In this document: positions 40,774 to 48,224 of the stretch, piece by piece
How the letters are laid out: every line of letters begins with the position of its first letter
How positions within the stretch are numbered: position 1 is the stretch's first letter
Source: Spirochaetia bacterium
GTDB lineage: Bacteria > Spirochaetota > Spirochaetia > CAKZLE01
Length of the DNA: 51,117 nucleotides
Reading direction: 5' to 3'
Assembly: GCA_021736385.1 (NCBI GenBank)
Contig: JAIPFY010000017.1
Location: 1 to 51,117, forward strand
Notes under the pieces: generated by a model
Database searches by the model: none
Seen by the model: only the letters and a program-made list of their open reading frames with translations
What the model was told of the DNA's origin: nothing
Position numbers and translations under genes: made by a program

Positions 40774-40803
40774 TTGACAATCATGAGGCTTATTAGATAA
40801 GGT
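40774..40803 (+). promoter_or_regulatory. Promoter of the histidine operon
   Basis: -35 TTGACA is a perfect consensus (40774-40779). The -10 box is either GATAAG (40796-40801, 16-nt spacer) or TAAGGT (40798-40803, 18-nt spacer). Either puts the start point within a few bases of the hisL ATG at 40811, so the leader peptide is read from a leaderless or nearly leaderless message. The AAGG here could alternatively serve as a ribosome-binding site if transcription starts further upstream. Confidence 0.6.
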
Positions 40804-40810
40804 ATAGGCG

Positions 40811-40864
40811 ATGAATAAATATACAGAAAACAGAATACATCACCATCATTTCCTCTTCTCATGA
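40811..40864 (+). CDS. hisL: his operon leader peptide
   Basis: A 17-codon frame reads MNKYTENRIHHHHFLFS and stops at TGA 40862-40864. Four consecutive histidine codons (40838-40849) are the sensing element of a transcription attenuator: ribosome stalling there when charged tRNA-His is scarce should free the downstream segment to form the antiterminator. It lies directly between the operon promoter and a terminator hairpin, in front of hisG. Confidence 0.92.
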   Translation: MNKYTENRIHHHHFLFS

Positions 40865-40866
40865 AC

Positions 40867-40917
40867 CATGAAGTGCGAATGTGATTGGTATATACCGAAA
40901 GGTCTCCGCATTTCATG
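40867..40917 (+). promoter_or_regulatory. Antiterminator of the his attenuator
   Basis: CATGAAGTGCG (40867-40877) can pair with CGCATTTCATG (40907-40917) over 11 bp with one G-U pair. The second segment includes the left arm of the terminator, so the two structures exclude each other. The first segment can also pair with TCATG (40859-40863) at the end of hisL, giving the 1:2 pause-type hairpin when the leader is fully translated. Confidence 0.8.
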
Positions 40918-40932
40918 CGGAGCTTTTTTTTT
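40904..40932 (+). terminator. Attenuator terminator before hisG
   Basis: CTCCGCAT (40904-40911), loop TTC, ATGCGGAG (40915-40922), one C, then nine T residues (40924-40932). It is a strong intrinsic terminator lying 66 bp before hisG, hence regulatory. Confidence 0.93.
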
Positions 40933-40998
40933 GGGTACAGGAAATGGAGTCTTCTGCAGCAGGAGTCTCATACAGAGTGAAAAACCTTGGAGGATATG

Positions 40999-41877
40999 AT
41001 GTTTACAAGCGAGTCAGTGTTACGGGTAGCAGTACAGAAGAGCGGAAGGCTGAGTGAGAAGTCACTCGATATCATCAGTCAGTGCGGGATAGATTTCAAT
41101 AACGGGTCACGGGTGCTCAAGTCCAGAGCTGAGAACTTTCCCATCGAGTTCCTCTATCTTCGTGATGATGACATTCCCGGGTACGTCTATGACGGCATTG
41201 CCGATATCGGGATCGTGGGAAGGAATGAGAAGGACGAGAAGGGCTACGATGTGACGGTCGTGAGGGACCTCGGGTTCTCACGCTGCAGATTATCGATCGC
41301 TGTCCCCAACAGCTTCGCCTATACCGGCCTTGCAGACCTCGAGGGGAAGCAGATCGCTACCTCCTATCCAAACATCCTGAAGACCTGCCTCAAGGACCAG
41401 GGAGTCTCCGCGGGGATCCATGAGATCAGCGGTTCTGTGGAGATCGCTCCTGCGATCGGTCTCACCGATGCGATCTGTGACATCGTGAGTACCGGTAGTA
41501 CCCTGATCAGTAATGGCCTGAAGGAAGTGGAAGTGCTCTACCGATCATCAGCGGTGATGATCGCCAGAGAGACCCTTGCCCAGGAGGATCCTGAGAAGCA
41601 GAAGATCCTCGATCGACTGCTGCTGCGGATCGATGCGGTCATGAGAGCGCGTCACTATAAATATATCATGTTCAACCTCCCCTCCGACAAGGTGGTTCAG
41701 GTCAAGCAGATCATCCCGGGGATGAAGAGCCCGACGGTCACCCCGCTGCTGGATGACAACTGGAGTTCGGTCCAGACGGTAGTGCAGGAAGATGACTTCT
41801 GGGATGTCTTCGAGGCATTGAAAGCGATCGGTGCTCAAGGTATTCTGGTCACAGGCATCGAACAGATGACCCTGTAA
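40999..41877 (+). CDS. hisG: ATP phosphoribosyltransferase, long form
   Basis: The 292-residue protein catalyses the first, committed step of histidine synthesis (ATP + PRPP). It is the long form: a catalytic part beginning VLRVAVQKSGRLSEKS, then a C-terminal ACT-like regulatory domain (about 220-292, including SPTVTPLL and GAQGILVTGIEQM) that normally gives histidine feedback. No HisZ partner is needed. The PRPP loop is around DIVSTGSTL. ATG 40999 is preferred because GGAGG lies five bases before it; TTG 40987 and ATG 40996 are less well spaced. Its sequence resembles Bacteroidota HisG in my memory. Confidence 0.95.
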   Translation: MFTSESVLRVAVQKSGRLSEKSLDIISQCGIDFNNGSRVLKSRAENFPIEFLYLRDDDIPGYVYDGIADIGIVGRNEKDEKGYDVTVVRDLGFSRCRLSIAVPNSFAYTGLADLEGKQIATSYPNILKTCLKDQGVSAGIHEISGSVEIAPAIGLTDAICDIVSTGSTLISNGLKEVEVLYRSSAVMIARETLAQEDPEKQKILDRLLLRIDAVMRARHYKYIMFNLPSDKVVQVKQIIPGMKSPTVTPLLDDNWSSVQTVVQEDDFWDVFEALKAIGAQGILVTGIEQMTL

Positions 41878-41890
41878 GAGGAGCAGTCCC

Positions 41891-43213
41891 ATGAAGGCAG
41901 ACATCGCTGTATATGAGAATCCGAGTGAGGCTGAGATCGGGGAGATCCTGAGACGACCGGCTGAAGAGCGTGCATCACTGGAAGATCTGGTGAAGGGCAT
42001 CATAGACCGGGTCAGGAACGAAGGGGATGCAGCCCTGATCGAGTATGCACGTACCTTCGATGCGGTCACCTTGAGTCAGCTGGAAGTGCCTGAGGAACAG
42101 ATCGACGAAGCAGAACAGCTCGTATCAGAAGAACTCAAGTGTGCCATCAGGCGTGCCTATACGAACATCCATAGCTTCCATGCTGCACAGCGATCAGAAG
42201 AAGTCCCGGTGGAGAGTGAGCCGGGAGTGACCTGCTGGCGAGAGACGCGGGCGATCGAACGGGTCGGGATCTACATCCCGGGAGGGACAGCTCCGCTGTT
42301 CTCCACCGTACTCATGCTCGCGATCCCTGCAGCGATCGCCGGGTGCCGTGAGATCGTACTGTGCACCCCGACTGATGCAGACGGGAAGGTACACCCTGCG
42401 GTACTCTATGCTGCGAGACTCAGTGGAGTGACACGCTGCATCGCCTCAGGCGGTGCTCAGGCGATCGCAGCACTGGCCTATGGCACTGAGAGTGTACCGA
42501 AAGTCGACAAGATCTTCGGCCCGGGTAATCAGTTCGTCACTATGGCGAAACAGCTGGTATCGGTCAGTCAGGTCGCGATAGACATGCCGGCAGGCCCATC
42601 GGAAGTGCTGGTCATAGCTGATGAGCACGCTGATCCTGTCATCGTGGCTTCTGATCTGCTCAGCCAGGCAGAACATGGGATGGACAGTCAGGTGATCCTG
42701 CTCACTACCTCCTTCAGGGTACTCGAAGAGGTGCGGATCGAGCTCGATACACAGCTCTCCCAGCTTCCCCGTGCCCGGTTCGCCGCAGCCTCCCTGTCAC
42801 ACAGCTCCATGGTACGGGTGGGCTGTCTTGAGAGAGCTTTCGAGCTCTCCAACCGGTATGCCCCCGAACACCTGATCCTGAACCTTCAGGAACCCGATAG
42901 CTGGCTCGAGCGGATCGAGCATGCCGGGTCGGTCTTCGTCGGTCCCTGGACACCTGAATCGGCAGGAGACTATGCCTCCGGGACCAACCATACGCTGCCG
43001 ACCTCAGGATGGGCACGCTCGTACTCTGGAGTGAGCCTTGAGAGTTATATCAAGAAGATCACCTTTCAGCGGATCACCCCTGCCGGACTGAGCGCATTGG
43101 GACCGGCTATAGAGATCATGGCATCCACTGAGGGGCTTGATGCCCACAGACAGGCAGTGACCTGCAGATTACAGGCCATCAACGCACAAGAAGGAAGTAA
43201 GGCACAGCGATGA
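41891..43213 (+). CDS. hisD: Histidinol dehydrogenase
   Basis: The 440-residue enzyme performs the last two oxidations, from histidinol to histidine. Landmarks are VGIYIPGGTAPLFSTVLML, the NAD-binding region near SGGAQAIAALAYGTESVPK, FGPGNQFVT, the zinc-site region DLLSQAEHGMDSQ, and RYAPEHL. The segment CWRETRAIERVGIYIPGG is of the type I associate with Bacteroidota. GAGGAG precedes the ATG, 13 bp after hisG. It overlaps hisC by four bases (ATGA, 43210-43213). Confidence 0.96.
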   Translation: MKADIAVYENPSEAEIGEILRRPAEERASLEDLVKGIIDRVRNEGDAALIEYARTFDAVTLSQLEVPEEQIDEAEQLVSEELKCAIRRAYTNIHSFHAAQRSEEVPVESEPGVTCWRETRAIERVGIYIPGGTAPLFSTVLMLAIPAAIAGCREIVLCTPTDADGKVHPAVLYAARLSGVTRCIASGGAQAIAALAYGTESVPKVDKIFGPGNQFVTMAKQLVSVSQVAIDMPAGPSEVLVIADEHADPVIVASDLLSQAEHGMDSQVILLTTSFRVLEEVRIELDTQLSQLPRARFAAASLSHSSMVRVGCLERAFELSNRYAPEHLILNLQEPDSWLERIEHAGSVFVGPWTPESAGDYASGTNHTLPTSGWARSYSGVSLESYIKKITFQRITPAGLSALGPAIEIMASTEGLDAHRQAVTCRLQAINAQEGSKAQR

Positions 43214-44289
43214 AAGTTATACGTACCATAGCATTGCAGCAGCTGGTGAGAAAGAATATCTGGTCCATGAAACCCTATTCTTCAGCACGCAGTGAATATT
43301 CAGGAAGCGCTGAGGTGTTTCTTGATGCGAATGAGAACTATCGTGACTATGTGGGGGACAGAGGCAGGAATCGGTACCCTGATCCCCTCCAGCGGCAGCT
43401 CAAAGAGAAGATCTCAGAAGTCTTCTCCATCGGTATCGACCATCTGTTTCTCGGGAACGGCAGCGATGAGGCTATCGATCTGCTCTACCGGGCTTTTGCA
43501 GAACCGGGAAGTGATTCAGCGATGATCCTTCCCCCCACCTATGGCGTCTACTCAGTCTTCGCACACCTCAATGATGTGGGGCTGATCTCGATTCCGCTTC
43601 GTTCTGACTACTCGATCGATGTGGGGCAGATAGAGAAGGAGATCGAGGAAGACCCCTCAGGCATGAAGCTGCTGTTCATCTGTTCGCCGAACAACCCAAC
43701 CGGTAACGACATCCCTCTCGAAGATATCGAGCACCTGCTCGCCATCTTCCCCGGGATCGTCGTAGTGGATGAAGCCTACCAGGATTTCAGCAGCAGAGCC
43801 TCGGCGGCATCCCTGCTGGATGCGTATGAGAACCTGGTGGTCCTGCGGACCCTCTCGAAAGCGTGGGGACTGGCGAATGCCCGTCTGGGCATGGCCTTCG
43901 CCTCACCACAGATCATCAGGATCCTGACGAACATCAAATACCCCTATAACATCAGCGGTCCTGCACAGGAGACAGCCCTGCAGGCCCTCGATCATGTGCG
44001 GGAAGTCAGGGAGGGTGTCGCTGAGATACAGGCTGCACGTACTGAGATGATCGATGCCTTCGGTCGTATCAGCTATGTCGAGTGCGTCTATCGCTCAGCA
44101 GCGAACTTCATCCTCCTGAAGGTCTCTGATGCAGACAGGCTCTATCAGGAGCTCAAGGATCGGGGGATCATCATCAGAAACAGAACACACGAGCCCGGCT
44201 GCACAGGATGTGTCCGGATCACGGTAGGATCGCCTCAGGAGAACCTGAGGCTGCTGGAAGCGCTGCGCACCCTGGAGGGAACCCTATGA
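43210..44289 (+). CDS. hisC: Histidinol-phosphate aminotransferase
   Basis: The 359-residue class I/II PLP aminotransferase converts imidazole-acetol phosphate to histidinol phosphate. The PLP lysine is K217 in TLSKAWGLANARLG. Other landmarks are LDANENY (38-44), LGNGSDEAIDLLY, CSPNNPTGN (158-166) and VVDEAYQDF. It is coupled to hisD and hisB by ATGA overlaps at both ends. Confidence 0.96.
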   Translation: MKVIRTIALQQLVRKNIWSMKPYSSARSEYSGSAEVFLDANENYRDYVGDRGRNRYPDPLQRQLKEKISEVFSIGIDHLFLGNGSDEAIDLLYRAFAEPGSDSAMILPPTYGVYSVFAHLNDVGLISIPLRSDYSIDVGQIEKEIEEDPSGMKLLFICSPNNPTGNDIPLEDIEHLLAIFPGIVVVDEAYQDFSSRASAASLLDAYENLVVLRTLSKAWGLANARLGMAFASPQIIRILTNIKYPYNISGPAQETALQALDHVREVREGVAEIQAARTEMIDAFGRISYVECVYRSAANFILLKVSDADRLYQELKDRGIIIRNRTHEPGCTGCVRITVGSPQENLRLLEALRTLEGTL

Positions 44290-45440
44290 GACCTGTACTG
44301 TTCATCGACCGCGATGGTGTGATCCTCAAAGAACCTTCGATCGACTTTCAGATCGATTCTCTCGAGAAGATGGAGTTCGTCCCCGGGGTGATCTCAGCTC
44401 TCACTGCCATCAGGAAGCGGACTGACTACTATCTGGTGATGGTATCGAATCAGGACGGGATGGGGACGGCCTCCTTCCCTGAAGAGATCTTCTGGCCGGT
44501 ACAGCAGAAGATGCTCAAGACCCTCAGTGGTGAAGGGGTGGTCTTCGATGCGATCCACATCGATCCTACGATGCCAGAGGAGCAGGCTTGGACGAGGAAA
44601 CCCGGGACGGGGATGCTCGAAGAGTATATGGCAGACGGGCAGAACCTCTATGACCTGAGTCGTTCCTATGTGATCGGCGACCGCACCTCCGATATCGAGC
44701 TGGCACGTAACATAGGATGTACGGCCATCTGGATGGCAGGGGAGGGACGTGAAGAGGACCTCAGGCAGGCCGGGAGTGATGGGTCTGACCTCAGTGCCAG
44801 CTGTACGCTCATCAGTGATGATTGGGGCCGTATCAGTGCGTATCTGATCGCGAAGGGTACGGCGAGGGCGGCTTCGCTGCATCGGAAGACCAGAGAGACC
44901 GACGTGATGATCTCTCTGGATCTTGATGGTACCGGGGAGTCTGACATCTCTACGGGACTGCACTTCTTCGACCACATGCTCGATCAGCTGGCCAGACACT
45001 CAGGTTGTGATCTTACGATCAGGGTGACCGGTGATCTGGAGGTGGATGAGCATCATACCATCGAAGATACTGCGATCACCCTCGGACAGGCTTATCTTGA
45101 AGCCCTCGGAGACAAGAGGGGGATCTCACGGTATGGGTTCCTGCTTCCCATGGATGACTCCCTCGCTCAGGTCGCCATAGACTTCTCAGGCAGACCCTGG
45201 CTGGTCTGGGATGTGGTCTTCGACCGGGAGCGGGTCGGGGATGTCCCCACCGAGATGTTCTACCACTTCTTCAAGTCCTTCTGTGACGAAGCCAGATGCA
45301 ATCTGAACATCGCAGCGAGCGGGAATAATGCACACCATATCATCGAAGCCGTATTCAAGGGCTTTGCCCGGGCGATCAAAGGGGCAGTTGCCAGGGACTT
45401 CGAGAATATGAGACTGCCCTCCACGAAGGGATCGTTATGA
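44286..45440 (+). CDS. hisB: Bifunctional histidinol-phosphatase / imidazoleglycerol-phosphate dehydratase
   Basis: The 384-residue fusion has an N-terminal HAD-type histidinol-phosphatase (DRDGV with D8 and D10; MVSNQDGMG; YVIGDRTSDIELA). From about residue 200 it continues as imidazoleglycerol-phosphate dehydratase (GLHFFDHMLDQLARHSG, DEHHTIEDTAI, the second metal site near NNAHHIIEAVFKGFARA). The Cys/His zinc ligands of the E. coli phosphatase half (in CPHLPADECDC) are all replaced here (DPTMPEEQAWT). This fusion is known from gammaproteobacteria and Bacteroidota. ATG 44286 lies in an ATGA overlap with hisC. Confidence 0.95.
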   Translation: MRPVLFIDRDGVILKEPSIDFQIDSLEKMEFVPGVISALTAIRKRTDYYLVMVSNQDGMGTASFPEEIFWPVQQKMLKTLSGEGVVFDAIHIDPTMPEEQAWTRKPGTGMLEEYMADGQNLYDLSRSYVIGDRTSDIELARNIGCTAIWMAGEGREEDLRQAGSDGSDLSASCTLISDDWGRISAYLIAKGTARAASLHRKTRETDVMISLDLDGTGESDISTGLHFFDHMLDQLARHSGCDLTIRVTGDLEVDEHHTIEDTAITLGQAYLEALGDKRGISRYGFLLPMDDSLAQVAIDFSGRPWLVWDVVFDRERVGDVPTEMFYHFFKSFCDEARCNLNIAASGNNAHHIIEAVFKGFARAIKGAVARDFENMRLPSTKGSL

Positions 45441-46057
45441 ACCAGCAGGTAGCGATCGTCAAATACAATGCGGGTAACATCTGGTCCATGAGCTGTGCCC
45501 TCAAGCGTCTTGGGGTGGACTACATCGTCACCGATGATCCCAAAGAGCTCTCATCGGCACAGAAGGTGATCTTCCCGGGAGTGGGAGAGGCCAGTACCGC
45601 CATGCGGTACTTGCGTGAGCGGGGGCTCGATGAGGTCCTGCGTGATCTGAAGCAACCGTTTCTCGGTGTCTGTCTCGGTCTTCAGCTGATGTGTTCGCAC
45701 AGCGAAGAGCATGATACCACCTGCCTGGGTATCTTCGATGAACCAGTCAGGCGATTCCCTGTCGGGCTGAAGGTCCCCCATATGGGGTGGAACACCCTCT
45801 TCGATCTCAAGAGTGACCTGTTTACCGGCATCACTTCCGAGTCCTATGTCTATTTCGTTCACAGCTACTATGCGGCTGCCGGTCCTGATTCCATAGCTCT
45901 GTGTGATTACATGCTGCCCTTCAGTGCGGCACTGCAGAAAGATAACTTCTTCGGGGTGCAGTTCCACCCGGAGAAGAGCGGGGCGATCGGAGAACAGATC
46001 CTGAAGAACTTCCTTGCCCTTGAATCTGATACTAAAAGCGAGGCTGACCATGTTTGA
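45437..46057 (+). CDS. hisH: Imidazole glycerol phosphate synthase, glutaminase subunit
   Basis: The 206-residue class I glutamine amidotransferase has nucleophile C79 in LGVCLGLQL and the catalytic pair H177/E179 in GVQFHPEKSG. It releases ammonia that passes through HisF. It overlaps hisB (ATGA) and hisA (8 bp), consistent with strict co-translation. KVPHMGWN is the usual interface segment. Confidence 0.96.
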   Translation: MNQQVAIVKYNAGNIWSMSCALKRLGVDYIVTDDPKELSSAQKVIFPGVGEASTAMRYLRERGLDEVLRDLKQPFLGVCLGLQLMCSHSEEHDTTCLGIFDEPVRRFPVGLKVPHMGWNTLFDLKSDLFTGITSESYVYFVHSYYAAAGPDSIALCDYMLPFSAALQKDNFFGVQFHPEKSGAIGEQILKNFLALESDTKSEADHV

Positions 46058-46805
46058 TGTGATCCCTGCCATAGACCTCATCGACGGGGCCTGTGTACGA
46101 CTCACCAAAGGTGATTATTCCCGGAAGAAAGTCTACTCTGGAGATCCGCTCGAGGTGGCCAAAGCGTATGAGGCGATCGGTCTCAGACGACTGCATCTGG
46201 TGGATCTGGATGGAGCGAGATCCGGAGGGATCGTGAACCATAAGGTCCTCGAACGGATCGCGACACAGACCGGTCTGATCGTCGATTTCGGCGGTGGGAT
46301 CAAACGCGATGAAGATATCAAGCAGGCCTTTGAATGCGGTGCTGCCATGGTGACCGGCGGGAGTATCGCCGTGAAAGACCCTGAGAGATTCCTCGGCTGG
46401 CTGAAGACCTATGGTCCGCAGCGCATCATTCTCGGGGCTGATGTCAGTGACGGGTTCGTCGCCGTCTCCGGATGGCAGGAAGCCTCGGAAGTCACAGGGG
46501 AACAGCTGATCCTCTCGTATGCGAAAGAAGGCCTGAAAAAGGTGATCAGTACCGAGATATCACGTGACGGGATGCTCAGCGGTCCATCGTTCGAACTCTA
46601 TGCGAGTATCACAGAAGCTCTGGACGATCAGGGATTCACGGATCTGGAACTGATCGCAAGCGGAGGGGTCTCCTGTTTCGATGACCTGCTCAAGCTTGAA
46701 GCGCAGGGACTCTCAGGAGTGATCGTCGGGAAAGCTATCTATGAGGGAAGGATCACGCTTGAGAAGATCGCCGAGTTCCAGCGCAGCTGCAACCCGGACG
46801 TATAA
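46050..46805 (+). CDS. hisA: ProFAR isomerase (HisA)
   Basis: The 251-residue TIM barrel catalyses the Amadori rearrangement of ProFAR. D8 in IPAIDLIDG is the catalytic base; the second acidic residue lies in LGADVSDG (near 130). HLVDLDGARSG and the phosphate loops VDFGGGIK and IASGGVS are present. ATG 46050 is the proper start, overlapping the end of hisH; a longer frame from 46014 lies entirely inside hisH. Confidence 0.96.
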   Translation: MFDVIPAIDLIDGACVRLTKGDYSRKKVYSGDPLEVAKAYEAIGLRRLHLVDLDGARSGGIVNHKVLERIATQTGLIVDFGGGIKRDEDIKQAFECGAAMVTGGSIAVKDPERFLGWLKTYGPQRIILGADVSDGFVAVSGWQEASEVTGEQLILSYAKEGLKKVISTEISRDGMLSGPSFELYASITEALDDQGFTDLELIASGGVSCFDDLLKLEAQGLSGVIVGKAIYEGRITLEKIAEFQRSCNPDV

Positions 46806-46814
46806 GGAGCGATT

Positions 46815-47567
46815 ATGTTAGCAAAGAGGATCATCCCCTGTCTTGATGTGAAAGACGGAAGGACAGTGAAAGGGGTGAATTTCGTGGACCTCAGAGATGC
46901 AGGGGATCCTGTGGAACTGGGATCCCTCTATGCACAGAAAGGTGCTGATGAGCTCACCTTCCTGGACATCACCGCCACAGTCGAGAAACGCAAGACCCTC
47001 TCACAGCTGGTGAAGCGGATCGCAGAGCATATCCATATTCCCTTCACCGTAGGCGGCGGGATCAGGACGGTCGATGATGTGCGGGTGATGCTCGAGTGCG
47101 GGGCTGACAAGATATCGATCAACAGTGAGGCGGTGAAGAACCCCTCGATCATTGATGCGATGTCCATGGAGTTCGGCAGTCAGTGCGTGGTCTGTGCGGT
47201 CGATACGAAGTATAACGGCAGATTCTGGGAAGTCTATGTACATGGCGGAAGGACCCCCACGGGGATCAGGACGCTCGACTGGGTGAAAGAGGTCGAATCC
47301 AGAGGGGCAGGAGAACTCCTGCTGACCTCCATGGACCATGACGGGACCAAGGACGGCTTTGCCCTGGAGCTTACCCGGGAGGTCAGTTCTCTGGTCTCTG
47401 TCCCTGTGATCGCCTCAGGTGGCGCCGGGACCATGGGACACTTCGTCGATATCTTCACCGAGGGAAAAGCTGATGCAGCACTCGCTGCAAGCATCTTCCA
47501 CTTCCATGAGATCGATATAGCCGAATTGAAAGAATACATACGCTCACATGATGTGGTCATACGCTGA
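46815..47567 (+). CDS. hisF: Imidazole glycerol phosphate synthase, cyclase subunit
   Basis: The 250-residue TIM barrel partners HisH and makes IGP and AICAR. D11 in IPCLDVKDG and the aspartate in CAVDTKYNG (about 130) are the catalytic acids. FTVGGGIR and IASGGAGTM form the phosphate sites. AAGGAG precedes the ATG, nine bases after hisA. Confidence 0.97.
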
Positions 47568-47597
47568 TCAATCTGCTGAGCCGATAGGAGAGAACAG

Positions 47598-48224
47598 ATG
47601 ACGATAGGTGACAGAACAGTAGATTTCTCAAAGAGCCCTGATAAGCTCGTCCCGGCTGTGGTACAGGATGCGGTGACTGCCAAAGTCCTCATGGTCGGCT
47701 ACATGAATGAAGAGTCTCTGCAGAAGACCCTCGATACCAAACTGGTGACCTTCTTCTCACGAAGCAGGAAGACCCTCTGGACCAAGGGAGAGACTTCGGG
47801 GAATGTCCTCAACCTCAGGGATATCAAAGTGGACTGCGACGGTGACACGCTCCTGGTCCAGGCGGTACCTGCAGGTCCGGTATGTCATACCGGTGATGAT
47901 ACCTGCTTTGCAGAAGTGAATGACCCCAAAGAGCATGAGGGTGTGGAATTCCTCTCGTATCTCGAGAGTGTGATCCAGGACAGGAAGAAGCATCCTGCAA
48001 ACGGTTCCTATACCAACCATCTCTTTGACAAGGGGATCAACAAGATCGCGCAGAAGGTAGGCGAAGAGGCCGTGGAGCTGGTGATCGAGGCAAAGGATGA
48101 CAACAAGGATCTGTTCCTTGGAGAGGCTGCTGATCTGATGTATCACTATCTGGTGCTGCTTGCAGAGAAGGGCTATACCCTGGAAGAGATGCTGGCAGTC
48201 CTGCAGTCCAGACACTCACGCTGA
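47598..48224 (+). CDS. hisI: Bifunctional PR-AMP cyclohydrolase / PR-ATP pyrophosphatase
   Basis: The 208-residue fusion (HisIE) has the cyclohydrolase first ([21 protein letters not shown], metal-binding DCDGDTLL and [12 protein letters not shown]) and the pyrophosphatase from about residue 115 ([28 protein letters not shown]). It performs steps two and three of the pathway. AGGAGAG precedes the ATG, 30 bp after hisF. It closes the operon; I see no clear intrinsic terminator after it. Confidence 0.96.

Follow-up and report, generated by a model that had tools for sequence, protein, structure and literature searches.

Anatomy of the region upstream of hisG

The analysed DNA, hereafter the window (the whole stretch at its full length of 51,117 nucleotides), contains a complete Spirochaetia histidine operon, hisGDCBHAF-IE, whose genes are placed in a row behind the element described here and were each assigned by NCBIfam profiles over their cut-offs (Table 1). 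The spirochaete origin proposed in the initial annotation, which had been made from the letters without database searches, agrees with the closest named relative, a Spirochaetia MAG of the same family with 84% HisG identity, and hisG is indeed present downstream of the element.

Attenuation of the his operon is textbook knowledge in enterobacteria, and the initial annotation had recognised the corresponding components at this locus. The perfect TTGACA can be read directly, the 17-codon leader with its CAT CAC CAT CAT run was found as described, and both the 11-bp antiterminator and the terminator stem ending in nine Ts were recovered, with region 3 as the common strand that makes the two helices mutually exclusive. 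The pairing between regions 2 and 3 (2:3) consists of 11 contiguous pairs including one G-U. A further competing pairing (1:2), absent from that annotation, joins approximately positions 40842-40858, which cover the end of the His run and the codons downstream of it, with approximately 40870-40889. Of the features of the attenuator class, a leader ORF with His codons, exclusive helices sharing a strand and an intrinsic terminator upstream of biosynthetic genes are present, the choice of helix by ribosome position is present as a computed property, and a rise in read-through at scarce charged His-tRNA is predicted.

Table 1 Features of the his attenuator region and operon in the window.
Feature	Position	Strand	Basis or remark
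-35 element TTGACA	40774-40779	+	sequence; TTGAC at fixed distance from leader ATG in 68/78 relatives
-10 element TAAGGT	40798-40803	+	weak match, 18-nt spacer; predicted +1 at 40810-40811
hisL leader ORF MNKYTENRIHHHHFLFS	40811-40864	+	17 codons, ATG 40811 to TGA 40864; predicted leaderless
Four His regulatory codons CAT CAC CAT CAT	40838-40849	+	partly also 5' side of pairing 1:2
Region 2, antiterminator 5' strand, CATGAAGTGCG	40867-40877	+	11 bp with 40907-40917
Region 3, CGCATTTCATG	40907-40917	+	common to antiterminator and terminator
Terminator hairpin CTCCGCAT-TTC-ATGCGGAG, regions 3 and 4	40904-40922	+	terminator scan, folds
Nine-T tract TTTTTTTTT	40924-40932	+	sequence; predicted termination zone
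GGAGG upstream of hisG	40989-40993	+	hisG start at ATG 40996 or 40999
hisG	40996-41877	+	long form with C-terminal domain; NCBIfam TIGR00070 and TIGR03455
hisD, hisC, hisB (bifunctional), hisH, hisA, hisF, hisIE	41891-48224	+	NCBIfam matches over cut-off for each

Conservation of the leader and predicted position of the transcript start

A search with the HisG of the window in 395 genomes of the class Spirochaetia returned 80 matches at E 1e-60 or better, and the upstream regions of all 80 hisG loci (L001-L008, L043-L114) were read. A His-rich short ORF precedes hisG in 78 of these 80 genomes, with a stop codon approximately 20-41 nt ahead of a terminator and hisG behind it, and every leader contains at least three His within six residues except L078, which has two. 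The terminator was present in all 75 distinct leaders examined. Outside the His run the peptides diverge (e.g. MNKYTENRIHHHHFLFS, MERTRRHHHSLS, MTNRKHHHHHFLT, MKTNQNRVHHHHHLCNRP), as would be expected if only the His codons were under selection. The conserved His runs that the initial annotation had suggested looking for thus exist, and leaders lacking the run or the alternative pairing were not encountered. Two loci of genus g32 (L108 and L112; genomes G383 and G244) are without leader and terminator, and their hisG lies closely behind another reading frame.

The leader mRNA had been described initially as nearly leaderless. In the window, the weak -10 element TAAGGT, which was missed by a generic promoter scan, leaves 7 nt before the ATG and thus predicts a 5' UTR of 0-1 nt. 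Comparison of the 78 Spirochaetia leaders revealed TTGAC-to-start distances of 35, 36 and 37 nt in 29, 35 and 4 cases (68 in total), of 40 nt in one and of 47-65 nt in nine; where several in-frame starts were possible, the start nearest to the 37-nt distance was chosen, a bias that touches a minority of loci. Among the 68 leaderless-type leaders, the -10 bases are well defined (T at -12 in 87%, A at -11 in 87%, T at -7 in 88%), the base at -1 is C or T in 97% and an A occupies position 0 in 99%, while a Shine-Dalgarno motif (GGAG, AGGA or GAGG in the Shine-Dalgarno window) occurs in none of them. The window itself is one base off, with a G at -1, unlike nearly all of its relatives. As a pyrimidine at -1 and a purine at +1 constitute the usual initiator, we infer that transcription starts at the A of the AUG. 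Taken together, the TTGAC spacing of 35-37 nt, the -10 element at -12 to -7, the pyrimidine at -1 and the lack of a Shine-Dalgarno motif predict a start at the AUG (1 nt before it in the window), and across about 80 related spirochaetes the start of the messenger seems to coincide almost always with the first codon of the leader.

We also considered an ordinarily leadered His attenuator, in which transcription would begin further upstream and AAGG (40799-40802) would serve as a Shine-Dalgarno sequence 8 nt before the ATG. The spacing of this AAGG is workable, nine of the 78 relatives have longer 5' UTRs, several of them with GGAG or AGGA motifs, and the trp leader of the same genome carries AAGGAG. 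However, the AAGG in the window overlaps the -10 element, and both the 35-37 nt spacing in 68 of 78 relatives and the absence of Shine-Dalgarno motifs from all 68 argue against this reading, which we regard as unlikely. The same spacing supports the nearly leaderless transcript of the initial annotation.

The arrangement does not appear to be confined to hisL. A strict leaderless pattern (TTGAC, TANNNT, ATG) was found at 68 sites in the source genome compared with 17 for the reversed control, i.e. about 50 sites above control, many of which head long open frames, and leaderless initiation looks common in the source lineage from these pattern counts. No leader peptides for other amino acids were recognised among the leaderless-pattern sites of this genome. 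Start-site mapping has shown leaderless mRNAs to be common in Leptospira (PMC5243855), and together with this enrichment it makes leaderless initiation a familiar feature within the phylum. One further locus, L005 (G057:C147), has its predicted transcription start on a GTG (VDKQDRNTEKHHHTHNT) with an in-frame ATG upstream of the predicted +1, and is a candidate leaderless GTG leader.

Alternative helices and their computed dependence on ribosome position

In the window, the 2:3 stretch folds at -18.2 kcal/mol compared with a shuffle mean of -9.2, and the terminator stretch at -18.1 compared with -8.6 kcal/mol, with 0 of 200 dinucleotide shuffles as good in either case; the 1:2 pairing of the window alone is no better than shuffles (z -0.2 to -0.7). 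In the set of 75 distinct leaders, the spacer that separates the stop codon from the terminator pairs with the terminator 5' arm at -13.6 kcal/mol (-9.7 for shuffled spacers) and with the His-codon stretch at -14.1 kcal/mol (-10.8 for shuffled spacers). Pairs could not be counted column by column, since four leaders aligned with MAFFT matched up poorly around region 2. A partner-swap test was used instead, with one leader from each of 39 clusters, which reduces relatedness, and 10,000 partner permutations. For 2:3, own partners reached -13.4 kcal/mol and swapped partners -10.5, and the real pairing was matched by none of the 10,000 permutations; for 1:2 it was matched by four. The arms change between groups yet stay complementary, as in CATGAAGTGCG/CGCATTTCATG of the window and ACCAGGAGAGGTGGTTTT/AAAGGTCGTCCTTCCTGGT of L069. 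The compensatory pairing upstream of hisG that had been proposed as a check is therefore present in relatives, with covariation of both alternative helices.

Folding in both states, likewise proposed initially, was carried out on the growing transcript at completion of the terminator hairpin (window end 40923), and the ribosome edge was placed at a distance of 12 nt, counted from the first A-site base. In these model folds, a ribosome stalled at the second His of the window leaves the antiterminator at a probability of 0.83 and the terminator at 0.15, whereas a ribosome at the stop codon gives 0.00 and 0.96, as does the ribosome-free transcript. In the folds run over all distinct leaders, the terminator of the window falls from 0.93 with the ribosome at the stop codon to 0.21 with it stalled at His. 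The choice of helix in the window is thus predicted to depend on ribosome position. For the 75 distinct leaders, terminator probability averages 0.97 in the ribosome-free state, 0.63 with the ribosome at His and 0.93 with it at the stop codon, compared with 0.91, 0.86 and 0.92 for shuffled spacers; the computed switch is strong (difference >0.3) in 27 leaders and weak (≤0.3) in 48. When the T tract is included at equilibrium, the terminator prevails even in the His-stalled state (0.82 for the window, and likewise in most leaders). Since the T tract extends the terminator and hides the switch at equilibrium, the folds at hairpin completion were used, and antitermination would have to be kinetic.

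The same equilibrium folds, which favour the terminator in nearly all states, would also suit a plain constitutive terminator or read-through brake next to an incidental His run. In that case, however, one would not expect 78 of 80 relatives to keep a His-rich leader at this site while the residues around the run diverge, nor a region 2 that is complementary to both of its neighbours with covariation, nor position-dependent switching that is much weaker in shuffles, and we consider this explanation very improbable. A different cis-regulatory RNA acting through the terminator, such as a T-box or riboswitch, deserves mention since his genes of Firmicutes and Actinobacteria are under T-box control (PMC9413887). 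Against it, the window and 18 hisG loci yielded no Rfam match at gathering score, the T-box model RF00230 included, the best sub-threshold matches were at chance level, and the predicted leader of about 120 nt is filled by the ORF and the three pairings, which leaves such an RNA with hardly any probability. The His_leader model RF00514 likewise had no match at this score in the window and the 18 relatives, and was not listed around the element when matches up to E 10 were admitted; the element is thus not a member of this Rfam family.

Overall, we are highly confident that the his operon is preceded by a ribosome-mediated transcription attenuator (hisL), read from a leaderless transcript. The enterobacterial logic suggested by the initial annotation is supported by the comparison with relatives, and from it the following response to histidine can be predicted. 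RNA polymerase would start at the leader AUG or one base before it, so that the first ribosome would load on the 5'-terminal AUG rather than via a Shine-Dalgarno sequence. With charged His-tRNA present, the translating ribosome would reach the stop codon (40862-40864) and cover region 2, region 3 would pair with region 4, and transcription would end at the T tract. With charged His-tRNA scarce, the ribosome would stall on the four His codons and keep this stretch from pairing with region 2, and the freed region 2 would pair with region 3, allowing the polymerase to continue into hisG. When no ribosome has loaded, the His-codon stretch could hold region 2, and the terminator would form by default.

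The conserved spacing indicates that a leader peptide can be locked to its transcription start across dozens of genomes. It is possible, although we consider it less likely than not, that selection has joined promoter, start site and leader start codon into a single element in two or more HisG lineages of Spirochaetia, and that leaderless loading times the first ribosome such that read-through depends on initiation as well as on histidine. As Shine-Dalgarno starts occur at the same place in close relatives, these loci offer a natural test of whether leaderless initiation alters the timing or sensitivity of attenuation. In addition, a function can be assigned to many small genes that had no annotation.

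Precedents, probable evolutionary origin and further leaders

The initial annotation had presented the element as a rarity outside the enterobacteria. Its occurrence in spirochaetes is supported, but the rarity was overstated, because his attenuators have already been predicted in Firmicutes, namely in the Bacillus cereus group, Eubacteriales and Erysipelotrichales (PMC9413887); these resemble the window in having three to five His codons and a terminator with antiterminator before the his operon, and differ in belonging to another phylum. Signs of leader-peptide attenuation of amino-acid operons have been reported for Flavobacterium psychrophilum (PMC9723704), and a paper of 2010, which stated that leader-peptide systems had previously been shown only in Proteobacteria and Actinobacteria, added hisS/hisZ leaders in bacilli (PMC2965389). 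For spirochaetes, no description of his attenuation was found in the literature searched, although an earlier listing is possible, and the present results would extend this form of control to the phylum.

The hisL of E. coli and Salmonella (RF00514) shares with the window a His run in a short ORF, competing helices, a terminator before hisG and the same kind of operon. In contrast, E. coli hisL has seven His codons and is leadered (general knowledge and PMC3896937), whereas the leader in the window has four, measures about 120 nt and is predicted to be leaderless. For the leaderless start, the closest parallels are found outside histidine biosynthesis. In Sinorhizobium meliloti, trpL is a ribosome-mediated attenuator whose transcript likewise has the leader-peptide AUG at its very 5' end, but it concerns tryptophan, precedes trpE(G), belongs to an alphaproteobacterium and is not a his element (PMC7298713). 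The ilvBNC leader of Corynebacterium glutamicum is similarly discussed as leaderless, with a hairpin that takes the role of anti-antiterminator once initiation is prevented (PMC11857589), but concerns branched-chain amino acids in Actinobacteria. Since both his attenuators beyond enterobacteria and leaderless attenuators have precedents, the new part is the conserved leaderless start.

The HisG proteins of families f1, f3, f17 and f8 cluster with Bacteroidota HisG in a single clade (99/96) that lies well away from other sampled Spirochaetia HisG, and that of f4 (L008) falls with Bacteroidota on a long branch. Bacteroidota his loci with close HisG relatives (L032-L034, L036, L039-L041) also carry His-rich leader ORFs (MIHHHSI, MYLNLHHHHHHFIHAQKAQN), while TTGAC at the leaderless distance was absent from the Bacteroidota His leaders examined. 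The Bacteroidota ORF appears to lie behind a short 5' UTR and lacks the leaderless spacing of spirochaete hisL. As HisG groups with Bacteroidota, several of which have His leaders with other spacing, the operon has probably moved between phyla; the likeliest course, judged from these sequences, is that an already attenuated his operon was transferred and that promoter and start were remodelled later. This suggests an attenuated operon common to Spirochaetota and Bacteroidota with a remodelled translation start. Three loci of family f42 (L191, L192 and L194), which came from a phylum-wide pattern search too loose for counts, have leaderless His leaders with terminators (e.g. MKRITMNHHHHHGYSSRGA) before a distant hisG lineage, which points to a repeated origin or spread of the arrangement. 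At L017 (G049:C135:16700-17411), a hisG relative broken by several TGA and one TAA lies downstream of the His-rich ORF LVRHHHHSIFP and represents a decayed gene, a poor assembly or recoding.

Two further leaders were noted in the source genome. A trp attenuator (L190; G000:C1 ~32322, minus strand) consists of TTGACA-17-TACTAT, AAGGAG before the ATG, the leader MNILMSHNAIRICSASWWCSSR and the terminator GACCCCGGGAACGGGGTC with a T tract, closely followed by trpE. Its leader peptide has a 5' UTR with a Shine-Dalgarno sequence, whereas hisL is predicted to be leaderless, so the two provide a natural paired comparison within one genome. A probable ilv leader peptide, MFLLLLILPVMIITLLPSAIIPVIVLPSVILVIIRLINLVLISL, is encoded at G000:C7 ~26035 on the plus strand (L189 8036-8170) and is followed by a hairpin with T tract, the acetolactate synthase small subunit and ilvC. 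Finally, at L193 (G161:C6:270-1800), a leaderless-type promoter and a leader with a His run (MFMKTVGFKQHHHHSHAAPSRTF) precede a sodium:solute symporter (PF00474) with no obvious terminator in between, and this symporter may transport histidine and be regulated in a different way.
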